From Wuchereria bancrofti (lineage: Eukaryota > Nematoda > Chromadorea > Rhabditida > Onchocercidae), in assembly GCA_005281725.1 (NCBI GenBank), contig SSBO01000009.1, positions 6,758,303 through 6,822,302 on the forward strand: 64,000 bases of DNA, written 5' to 3'. Under the pieces are notes generated by a model. That model ran no database searches, had not been told where the DNA came from, and worked only from the letters and a program-made list of their open reading frames with translations. Position numbers and translations under genes: made by a program. This document shows, one piece after another, positions 12,066-47,236 of the stretch. The stretch's first letter is position 1, and each line of letters begins with the position of its first letter.

Positions 12066-15000
12066 TCAGCAACCTTGCACTTTGTCAAATCCGGCTTCCC
12101 AATCATAGGGAAATTCTTGCACCTGTAGCATCGATATTGCTTTCCTCATTAGCTAAAAAAAATTTGCAATAAAACTAGTCGGATAAAACAGCTTTCGAGC
12201 GATTCATTTCTTTTTTTTCTAATAACTTTAAATTCGATGAAGGTAATCTCTCTTCTCTTCTGGGTTACATCTTGTTGTTGAGGCACTTTTAAAACTATAT
12301 TTTATTGAAAAGAGAAATTCAAGGTTAATGTCCTTCAACAGATTTAATATCTCATAAATATACCAACCTTGTAAATTTTTTCATAATTTGGATTATCGTA
12401 AAACCGTAAGCTATCAATGTAATGTAAAATTTCGACATATTCTCGCGGACAACCACCCATAAGCTCCTGTAGACCCATTTCAAAACGACATCGCTCCTAC
12501 AACATGAAGCATTAGGCATATTGATAAATTCAGCTGATATTATAATTAGATAAGAATGAAGCTAAGCTCATGCAATGCGTAATTTAAAGGGTTCAATCAC
12601 CACAAAAGACATAAAATAATGAAAAATAAGGAGTGTATAAATCTCTTTAGTCTATTTATGTTTTATATCTTATCAATATTATGCATGGGATTACCCTCTC
12701 GCGAAGAAATCCAATTTTTATCAGAATTCAATCTCTGAATTTAGGAAAATCTGGTGTTTACTTCAAAATCTAGTCACTAGTTTGGATATATTTCAACGAT
12801 GTAAAGATGATCACTGAAGCTTTTTCCCTATTTTCGCTTATTTTTTAAAATGCACAAGTGCTGATGAGTATAATACTTTAAACATTGCTACTTCATCCTT
12901 TTTATCGTCTAACGAACGCCACGGAAGTGCACCACGTGTAATTTCAATTTGCTGATAGAGCCACGATTCAATATCATCTTTGCGACATGTTTCACGTCGT
13001 ATATGGCACGATAATGATGCGTATCGAATCGTACCACGAAATCCAGCTATCTGTATAATTCAAATTTATACGATTCTCAATGGTCAACTGATTAATTTAT
13101 AGAGATTGATAGCGCACAAATATGCACTAGACATGCATGCAAATGACATACATTTTCTCAATTTCCTCAAATTTTCCTCAAAGACGAATTTATTGCACTT
13201 CTAGCTATATATACATATTAATGGACAGTGAATAACTAGCTTTATTCAAAATGTTTCTTGGAAAATCATTTAATTGTGCATATCATTATCATTTTAGATG
13301 TTAACACTTCACTTCTTCATATTTGCCATCAATCACAATGCAATGCAGCACTAGTTACAGCAACTTGCATGGAAACTTGAAAATGATACCAAAAAGTGTC
13401 GAAAGTCTTAATCAGTTTAACATAATGAAATAGAACAGATAAACCAATTAAATATAACGTTTATCATATCCTTAAGTAAATGAAATTCCCTGCAAATCAA
13501 GCAAGAAGGTCACGTTAGGCTTAGACTTAGGCCTATTGATTTCACAAGACGAACAACAACTATCGTCTTCGACTACTTTATTTTCTTTTTCTTTTGCAGC
13601 ACATTCACACGCTTTAAATTCTAACAATTGATAGATACAACAAAAATAAAAGCCTATTAAAATATTGCGTAGATGATTCCCGCTATGACTCATAAACTAC
13701 TTTTTGTTAATTCTGTATAAATTTAAGCATTTTCATTGGAAGATTTAGTAAATGATATCTCAGAAATGCTTCTTTTTGCTCCATCAGTTGTTCTTTTTAG
13801 CTGGAATTACATTTCTAATATATGGTAATGTGATATGGAGGAATGCTAAGATTTGCTTGCATAATTATCAATTTGATTTGCTCGGGGGCCATTGCTGGAC
13901 TATCCGCGTGAAGAATTGATATTGATCCAGGGTTTACTGCCCTAAGGAAAGTAAAAGCTTCCGCTCCACGCAGCTCACCAACTACTATCCTATCTGGCCT
14001 TAAACGTAAGCATGCTTCTTTATACAAACACATGTCATGTAATGTATTTAGCCTCGTCTCATCGCTATTTCTTCTTCTGTCCCCATTCTTCCCATTAGAG
14101 TATTATCCAATATTTCTTTCTTTCTTTTCTTCTTCAATTAAAACTTTAGTCATTTTAGTGTCGATAAAGCCAGGAGCATGTAATTTACTGTTATATTGCG
14201 ACTTGCAACTTCTTTTCCTATATAATTATTGAGGAAGACTTTGCCTAATAATACTGATAAAAAAATAATTGTTTGTACTTGCAATACTGACTACTGAAGT
14301 CTTTATTTCTTCTACAAGGATTGTCTCATCACGAAATTTCATGCTGTATGTCTGATAAAGATGGCTTGGAGTAGTTTTGAACCTTGAATTTGGCTTTCAC
14401 ATATCAAAAGCTATTTCACAAACCTTTCTCGGAGGTCGGAACCGTCCATGTTCATCTAAATAGCTTCGGCACATCCCAAAGTCCAATATGTAAATTCGTC
14501 GTAAATTATCAAGTTTTCCACGACCCGTTGCGTAATTACTTGGTTTAATATCACTGAAATATTAATTATACTATCATTTTGCTCATGTCTGAGCATCTAA
14601 GTGATGGAGACTTGAGAAACCTGATTTCCTTATGTGATAATGATAACTGTAAATAACAGAAATTCTTGCTCGTTCTAGAAATTCAGTTATAAAATATTCG
14701 TTTATTAAAAAAAAAAAAAAAAAATTGAACGTTAAACAAGAAATAGTGCTATGAAAAGAATATTTGTCGTACGGTAGGACTAATTTTGGGATTAAACTAT
14801 TTTCACACTAGGCTTCAAGTTTTTCGAAAATGCAGAGCGGAAGACCGATGCAAAAATCCAATAGCGTGAAGTTCTTCAATTGCTTCCAAACACTGAATTC
14901 CAACAGATAGTGCACAACCCATGGAAAATTTTTGCCCGGGTAACTCTTTCCTTATATCCTTCAAATAGGGATGTCGGATATATGATGAATTAGGAATAGC

Positions 15001-43714: not shown

Positions 43715-46184
43715 TTTGCAAATTTTCTGAGTTCTCATTTGTTAGCTTTGTAACTGGATGGCTTTCGTTTCGTTTCTTATTTTGCTACTGGTCATTTTGC
43801 CTCTTTGATTGTTTAAATAGTCATGTAAAAGTGTAATTCCTTTCACTTTTTCAAAGTTTTTTAGAATGAAAACAGGGTCAGGTAACCCTAAACATTTTAT
43901 TATAGGTGTAGATTAATATTCTCTAGAAAAGATCTTGTAAGACAAGAATGAAAGGGGTATACTTTATGGAAATTCTGGTTAATCTCGAAACACATTTCGA
44001 TGTCTAAAAGAACGATGTAATACTGAGGTCGATTATGTTGAAAAAAACTGGTCATACGATTGTCAACGCAAAATTTTTCAACTCAAATTTCGGACGAAAA
44101 GAAAAAGTAAAAATAAAATTCTCCTGCATAGCGAGAAACAAAAATCTCAGATATTTTTGAATTTGTTGTCACTAATAAGATCTCTTCCAGAGAGAATTAA
44201 AAATTAAGTATTTATTGTACGCATAATTTTCTTTCTTTGTTCAAAAAATTCTTAGTTTCTTTTCTTAGTTTAATTCAGCTTAGAATTATGAAACATCTAA
44301 AAATTATACGACAAAAGTAAGATTTTATAGCACATAGTCTTCAATGGCAATGTAAATCAATTTCGCAATCCAAGCAATGGGGTTTCCGAGGATGCCTGTT
44401 TGAAATTACTTTTCTACTTCTAAATAAGGTATTATTAACATTTGCTAACTACATCTGTGATAATCGTCAGAACTTACTAATTAACATATATACCATATAA
44501 GGGTATGGGAGGAAAATTACACTATTACTAGTAGGAGTACCCAGCGGAAAAAGCAATCAATGGAAGGATCTAGTATTCAATTAGTTTTAACCAGAATAAT
44601 AGCATCTGCCAAATGCAATATGACTTTAACCCAAAGGTGTTCGTTGGTAACAAAACTCGATGACACAAATATACTATCTTTTTAGATTTTCAGAGACCAA
44701 TTCGTCATGTTCATTTTTAAAAATTTGTATCGAAGTTCACAGAGCGATGTATGTTACAAAGTCTTGTATTACCTAGTAACATTTGTAATATCCGTTTAAA
44801 GTAAGTCTAGTCTGTGTACCCAATTAATCCGCCTGACGGCGACAATCATTTTTATTTATATCATATTTTTCCTCTTCACAAATATTTGTTTTGTATAATA
44901 TAGCAATGATTTTGATTTAGACAAGATATTTTTTTACTTTTTGCACAGCTGCTGCTGTTTCACTGTTCATAAATTAGACTGAAGTGTGAGACACTACCAT
45001 GAGATACCAATTGACTGCTTCCATCCAAACTTTTTGCTAATGTTTACCCTCCGCACATATCTCCATATTTCGAATATAAAGTAATGTTTGTATCAAATTT
45101 TTGTTGAAATATTCTTCAATAGCATACTTCGTCGGGTTCAGATCTAATGAATGTAGCAGTATCTCAGGTTCGATTGATATCGTTTACCCGCACTTTTTCT
45201 ATTAGATCACCTCATGACTGCGCGAATCCGAATACAGTTGTTTCAAATATAGCTGAAAAAAGGTACAAGAAAAAAGAGATATGTTTGTAACAAGATAAAA
45301 GTATCATAACTTCCTGTTTAATAATTTTTCTTGAAAGTTTTCTGATTCTTTTTAAAAAAAACTAGAATTTGCCATGTTCAATACCAAATTTTTGCAATTT
45401 TACCACTGAAATGATTCTTCTAGTTGAATGAAGAACATTATTTTCTCAGCACTATTTTTATTAATTTCTGGAGAATTTGATGTAATAAATTTATGATATA
45501 TGTATCAAGTCATCTATTCACCTTTTCCTATGCAAGTTTTCAGGAACTGTGTTACCTCATCATTATTGTTAATATCTTTATAATTCGAGCTTTCCAAAAA
45601 ACTCAGAGCTTCTTTTCTTTTTCTAATCAGTCCCATTTTTTTATTCTTTTCCCCAGAATACAATCATTTTTTTTAATTGTAATGGAAACAACTAATATTT
45701 CACATAAAATTTTTTTTCCATTTTCTAACCAAATTGAAACTCTTGACAATATTTCTGCGCACTTTTTTGTTATTTTATTGTCTCTTCAATGAAATGTTTT
45801 CGTTAAAACGAGACGGATCATCGTCACACTAATCTTACACTAGTATATAATTCATAAAAATATGTCTTATTACGGGTTGGCATGAAGGCAAAACAAGTTT
45901 AAATGAATGAGAAACGAGATGAATGAAAACTTTGACTTGAACTACTTAAAGAAATAACTGTCCGCCAAATCCATTTTGATTCCTAACTGGTAGACTTTAA
46001 AATGACTATTAGGTGGATATGAAGTTGCTTTTTTTTGAGCACCGATGATTTATTGGTATTTTCATGTCGATATGTATGAAAACACTGTTCTTTCCGTAAT
46101 AATGTTTTTCATCTGAGCTAGTCATGCGCTTAAATTGAACATTCAATAGCTTAGCAGCTTATTAATAATTCTGAATAAATTTGC
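43715..46184. other. Intergenic region downstream of ELM2-SANT gene
   Basis: No complete gene was identified. Contains the orphan exon pair described separately (45123-45583), otherwise AT-rich sequence without recognisable protein. Confidence 0.4.
45123..45583 (+). CDS. Orphan exon pair, possible alternative 3' end of the ELM2-SANT gene
   Basis: The interval 45123..45262 follows an acceptor (TTCTTCAATAG) and stays open for 46 codons (TSSGSDLMNVAVSQVRLISF then TRTFSIRSPHDCANPN) up to a donor AAAAG|GTACAAG. A good acceptor, AAGTTTTCAG at 45543, continues it in phase (exon 45544..45583) with a TAA after 13 codons. The incoming phase is 0, the same phase in which the ELM2-SANT exon ending at 42943 leaves. 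It could therefore be an alternative terminus of that gene, or a fragment of an unseen one. No homology recognised. Confidence 0.35.
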
Positions 46185-46798
46185 ATAAGTTATATATTAT
46201 GTTGTAGTATATAATATAGTAATATATAATAACAATATAATAATAATATAACAATAATATTAATATAATATAATAATGCAATAATATAATATAATAATAA
46301 CAATAATATGGCACAATATAATAATAATCTAATATAATAATAAGTATAATATAATAATATAATATGAATATATAATATAATATATAGTAAAGCATATATA
46401 ATAATATAATAAGAATAGTAATATAATAATGATAATAGTAAGTAACATAATATAATACATAATAACATGTAATATGATAATAACAATATATATAGTATAA
46501 TATAGTACGTAAATATAGTACGTAATACAATGTTAGTATAATACACAATAATATATGATTTATAACTGTAATATATATTATATAACAATATTAATATAAT
46601 ACTATATTATATAAATTGTAATGATATCAAATTTATAACATAATAATGTACAACGTAATATAATATACAATAATATAATACATAACATATAATACGATAA
46701 TTTATATTAATATAATGTAATATATTTATTATAAATTATATTAAATATAATAATATAATAAAATATAATACAATATGATTATGTTATTATTATTATTA

Positions 46799-46832
<34 letters not shown>

Positions 46833-47236
46833 GTTATATTATATTAAATATTATATTACATTATACTAATATAATATATAATACTATATTATTATATTTA
46901 TTATTATTATATTACATTATATTATTAGATCATATCATATATATTATATAATATACATCACATAGTATAATTATACTTTATATTAATATATTATATTACG
47001 TTATATTATTATATATATTAATATTACTACTATTATTATATTATATATTATACTATATTATAGTATTATTACACTATATTATGATATTACACCATTATTT
47101 TATATATTATCATATTAATATTATGTTATATTATAATATATTAATATTCTTATATCAAGCTACATTATATTATAATAATATTATATTATTATATTAATTA
47201 TTTTATTTCATATTATAGCATATATTATATCACATC
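46185..47236. repeat. About 1 kb of almost pure A/T low-complexity sequence with strand switch
   Basis: Nearly only A and T, built from ATA/TAA/TAT trinucleotides with rare G or C. The plus strand is A-biased (AATATAATAATA type) up to about 46778, then becomes T-biased (TTATTATTATTA type) to the end. The two halves are thus roughly complementary and could fold back. Long open frames on the minus strand here (Tyr/Ile/Leu only) are artefacts of composition. Confidence 0.9.

Follow-up and report, generated by a model that had tools for sequence, protein, structure and literature searches.

How remnants of two bacterial genes came to lie against each other inside an intron of a nematode gene, and whether they arrived there together, is the question raised by this locus. 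The window, by which we mean the whole stretch of 64,000 nucleotides of Wuchereria bancrofti DNA analysed here, carries on its minus strand the remains of a FabG-type reductase gene followed head to tail by those of virB11. Our protein and DNA comparisons identify 14228-13653 (-) as a nuclear insertion of Wolbachia DNA (NUWT) within an intron of a tau-tubulin-kinase-like gene. Very probably it is a degraded NUWT in which a 3′ piece of fabG is joined directly to a virB11-virD4 junction, with the two fragments likely end-joined in the germline nucleus. The features of the locus are collected in Table 1.

Table 1. Kinase intron and Wolbachia-derived segments, in window coordinates
Feature	Position	Strand	Basis
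Kinase exon before the intron, start approximate	14424..14552	-	
Host intron holding the insert, 1,373 bp	13051..14423	-	GT..AG edges; kinases of named nematodes share the exon join RPPRK-IAGFRG
fabG 3′ piece, Wolbachia, truncated and frameshifted	14064..14228	-	Matched at DNA level in 37 of 44 genomes; NCBIfam on the intact comparator
fabG resumed past a deletion of ~20 bp	14026..14058	-	Collinear alignment to G438 fabG; short matches at fabG in four genomes
fabG/virB11 join, ~6 bp belonging to neither match	14020..14025	-	Ends of both alignments
virB11 3′ part up to the stop codon	13723..14019	-	81% DNA match to G438 and G449
virB11-virD4 spacer	13694..13722	-	Alignment with Wolbachia-type genomes
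virD4 start, start codon 13693-13691	13653..13693	-	Alignment, with DNA match to 13653 or 13652; VirD4 by NCBIfam (intact comparator)
Candidate further virD4	13617..13652	-	Weak alignment of a stretch within 13652-13560
Kinase exon after the intron, end approximate	12877..13050	-	

The host gene is well defined on both sides of the insert. An earlier note on this DNA had given 14424 as the last base of one kinase exon and 13050 as the start of the next, and both edges stand, as the GT..AG dinucleotides and nematode kinase proteins agree on them. At the level of the assembly, exons of a single kinase gene flank the insert on both sides within a 12.7-Mb contig. The approximately spliced kinase has one mismatch to a W. 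bancrofti protein, at a junction that was set by eye (100% identity when rounded), and is 99% identical to Brugia malayi Bm9989 and 87-90% identical to proteins of Onchocerca flexuosa, Litomosoides sigmodontis and Thelazia. Five kinase sites differ between W. bancrofti and B. malayi, and the window agrees with W. bancrofti at all five. The SspI repeat primer of W. bancrofti, however, had no match at up to 1 mismatch, which speaks against this host unless the assembly lacks the satellite; the Loa loa primer LLMF72 (up to 1 mismatch) and the Brugia HhaI primer (up to 3) had none either. The insert runs in the same direction as the kinase, which calls for no special explanation. One W. bancrofti gene model, P0154, contains a predicted extra exon taken from the intron at about 14292-14393 (-) of the window, just upstream of the NUWT.

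Both pieces find their nearest relatives among Wolbachia genes and not among nematode genes, at the protein as well as the DNA level, which bears out the Wolbachia origin first proposed from the sequence. Identities above 78% in the full-order protein search are all to genomes of one cluster (G423-G463), several of them Wolbachia. The fabG piece matches 38 of the 44 genomes searched at E ≤ 0.01, with 37 of these matches extending over about 150-166 bases, and its best match is to the Wolbachia of Litomosoides brasiliensis (G438; 84.8-86% DNA identity, best E 1.4e-45). The virB11-virD4 piece reaches ~81% DNA identity (best E 1.1e-105) and was matched in 27 of 28 further genomes, G441 being without a match. 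E values this low lie well outside what chance would give, and the head-to-tail arrangement of the two remnants on the minus strand is as originally described. The identities FabG, VirB11 and VirD4 are those assigned by NCBIfam to the intact comparators in G438, and a T2SSE domain falls within the open piece at 13818-14060.

The extent of the insert differs somewhat from the 13694-14216 at first proposed. Its true span runs from 14228 to at least 13653 and takes in the start of virD4. A weak virD4 alignment within 13652-13560 has a score that was reached by 48 of 1000 shuffles, and extension upstream of 14228 is unsupported, as 437 of 1000 shuffles reach its score. A search of 13040-14440 against 12 genomes returned no third Wolbachia piece elsewhere in the intron, with three short matches only (E 0.03-0.04). 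The open frame at 13475-13696 has no NCBIfam or Pfam match at E 0.01 and no relative among viral contigs.

The boundary between the two pieces could be placed almost to the base. First-pass matches leave 44 bp between fabG and virB11, and these have no match of their own at E 0.05 in 12 genomes; filler DNA at the join was nevertheless rejected, because the 44 bp are mostly fabG lying past a deletion. In a short-word search, parts of them fall within fabG of four genomes, and the collinear alignment, made to the fabG of G438 only, gives 14058-14026 a score of 21 that none of 2000 shuffles equalled (top shuffle 15). With most of the 44 bp thus assigned to fabG beyond a deletion of ~20 bp, the change from fabG to virB11 takes place within about 6 bp. 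The abrupt switch that the earlier note described is therefore upheld, though its estimate of about 30 bp proves too wide. On these alignments, the insert is a direct two-piece fusion of fabG to virB11.

Such a fusion does not reflect the gene order of Wolbachia. Our distance table covers 27 single-contig Wolbachia-type genomes with matches to both genes and leaves aside multi-contig assemblies as well as G453, which is apparently single-contig and has no fabG match. In all 27 genomes fabG and virB11 are non-adjacent, at distances of 20.6-773 kb, and in 16 of them they lie on opposite strands. In G438 the two genes are on separate contigs. The gene after fabG in the L. brasiliensis Wolbachia is a TrbC/VirB2 pilin gene (L044 1845-2186 (+), Pfam E 1.1e-13), so that fabG in this genome adjoins a secretion gene, though not virB11. 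Because the two genes are far apart in every one of the 27 genomes, the insert is a mosaic. The doubt first voiced over whether fabG and virB11 are neighbours in Wolbachia was thus justified by the gene-order check, and the same separation supports the suggestion that rearrangement took place before or during integration.

Both remnants are truncated and frameshifted, as was noted at the outset, in contrast to the intact frame under selection expected of a functional transferred gene. Relative to G438, virB11 has lost 9, 2 and 11 bp in separate deletions and gained 3 bp in an insertion. Its private changes, meaning those absent from all 38 comparison rows, are spread 4:6:3 over codon positions 1:2:3, and the comparison rows' own private changes in virB11 are distributed 20:9:52 (38 rows; Fisher p 0.007 for the third position versus the other two). 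The codon counts and the virB11-virD4 tree share these 38 rows, from which G424 and the second match in G463 were left out. In fabG, private changes are distributed 3:7:4 against 30 rows. This spread over codon positions, together with the indels and frameshifts, substantiates the proposed decay in the nucleus. The two pieces look to be of similar age and to have evolved without coding constraint.

Taken together, our observations are consistent with a simple route of entry. Fragments of Wolbachia DNA would have been present in a germline cell, and would have been joined together and inserted at a break in the chromosome within the intron, presumably by non-homologous end joining, so that both pieces entered in a single event. 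The insert would then have drifted, leaving with the spliced intron and having neither function nor effect. The donor in this scheme would be a supergroup D Wolbachia, as W. bancrofti carries today.

The alternative that survives best, although we regard it as unlikely, is that two NUWTs were inserted separately, one later than the other, at adjoining points of this intron. NUWTs are numerous, with a survey of 22 filarial species reporting 24-247 regions in hosts infected with supergroup D, among them W. bancrofti (PMC12693587), and the genome has another virB11-virD4 NUWT. However, the two pieces meet within about 6 bp and in the same orientation, and they have decayed to a similar degree. 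Among sites that are invariant in the comparison rows, 10/152 have changed in virB11 and 9/93 in fabG, as would be expected of one event.

The other virB11-virD4 NUWT lies on contig C12 (L002 1496-1732; G000:C12 about 7652781-7653017) and covers the same junction as the window insert. It adjoins a host gene that reads by eye as a short-chain dehydrogenase, its virD4 part reaches further than that of the window insert, and no fabG piece was matched at L002. The two copies are identical at 183 of 229 shared sites (79.9%), and the C12 copy is up to 80.6% identical to live genomes, with no indels against G438. Being as far from the window copy as from live genomes, and free of indels, the C12 copy is probably an independent insertion. 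The two copies may nevertheless share common descent, given that they group together at 90/83 in the virB11-virD4 tree and that six sites have changed in both. Of 226 common sites, 12 are private in each copy, with 3 sites showing the same private change and 3 different ones; by our own arithmetic, roughly 1.4 doubly hit sites would be expected by chance.

A second alternative, which we consider quite improbable, is that the donor was an earlier Wolbachia, from a supergroup different from that of the present symbiont, in which case the pieces record a replaced infection. The choice depends on the nearest relatives of the two pieces, and the DNA-level comparison was made against genomes other than wWb and wBm. 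Among the compared genomes, G438 and G449 appear to be nearest and nearly tied. In the first-pass BLAST lists G438 alone heads the fabG list (84.8%) and shares the top place with G449 in the virB11-virD4 list (81.3%), and in the tree alignments it is G449 that has the highest identity for both pieces (84% and 85%), which together with the weakness of the trees would suit a replaced infection. The window and C12 copies group with G438 in the virB11-virD4 tree at support of only 81/57, and the fabG tree, built from 30 of the 37 genomes with a long match, branches without resolution. Against a replacement, the genomes that we take to represent supergroups C and J (G428, G437 and G436) are more distant, at 76-77% for virB11-virD4 and 79-81% for fabG. 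Supergroup replacement is reported for several filariae, but according to the same source the clade of Brugia and Wuchereria showed no NUWTs of supergroup C (PMC12693587). The L. brasiliensis and B. malayi Wolbachia are both listed under supergroup D (PMC12693587), and for one protein of the L. brasiliensis endosymbiont that of the B. malayi endosymbiont is next closest (88%). The preferred donor, then, is likely a supergroup D Wolbachia; the trees do not themselves fix the supergroup, and this assignment is helped by the reported commonness of supergroup D NUWTs in Brugia and W. bancrofti (PMC12693587).

The earlier note had also raised the prospect that the insert is fossil evidence of a lost infection, should the host now lack Wolbachia. 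This idea was not borne out. W. bancrofti is reported to carry Wolbachia (PMC3849323), and a Wolbachia genome from this species is listed under supergroup D (PMC12693587). With a live symbiont in the host, the insert is probably no fossil of this kind. The assembly has five COX1-family matches, none of them an intact bacterial cox1; this says little on infection, as nuclear assemblies may omit the contigs of a symbiont. One of the five, L106 (G000:C5:460375-460554), is a short cox1-family piece that by eye resembles bacterial CtaD and is probably another NUWT. The others are mitochondrial-type cox1 pieces, on contig C12 (L102, L104 and L105) and contig C76 (L103), and L102, of 1,116 bases, is interrupted by TGA only, as in a young nuclear mitochondrial copy. 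Elsewhere in the window, 46001-47000 is of low complexity with a GC content of 13.7%, and its chance open frames are rich in Tyr, Ile and Leu.

It is tempting to speculate further, though we hold it to be a long shot, that the insert might be shared by Wuchereria and Brugia, which would make the join a datable Wolbachia marker, and that a new alternative exon of the kinase might have arisen from the lengthened intron, in which case the exon predicted in P0154 would be its trace. Hardly credible is that an error of assembly, or contaminating symbiont DNA, put these fragments into the intron: unlike the DNA of a live symbiont, the insert no longer has intact reading frames, and it differs by about 19% from the nearest compared genome. 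A recorded 60-aa protein identical to a frame in the window, from a contig no longer than 1,325 bp, is a weak further point against such an error.

The degraded, two-piece NUWT that we favour is an ordinary example of its kind, as two-piece and intronic NUWTs are already documented. The catalogue for filariae holds 7,906 matches in about 5,000 regions (PMC12693587), and with thousands of such matches on record the insert alone changes no view of the symbiosis. The main text of that study makes no mention of 'intron', 'virB11', 'fabG', 'mosaic' or 'chimeric'; among the publications listed by literature searches on NUWTs with introns or W. bancrofti, no title names this locus, which may still be listed within them. 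The insert nonetheless provides a clear example, resolved to the base, in which fused fragments of a symbiont's DNA have entered a worm chromosome. Scoring the presence or absence of its unique fabG/virB11 join could help to date the association between worm and Wolbachia. Like the NUWTs reported for B. malayi (PMC3849323) and for 22 filarial nematodes (PMC12693587), the insert is Wolbachia DNA that has decayed within the nuclear genome of a filaria, and it differs from them as described in these sources in consisting of two pieces joined within about 6 bp in one intron. The complex or mosaic numts and nupts of PMC6215612, a paper whose title names end joining, are likewise made up of several non-adjacent fragments, but there the donor is an organelle, whereas here it is a bacterial symbiont.
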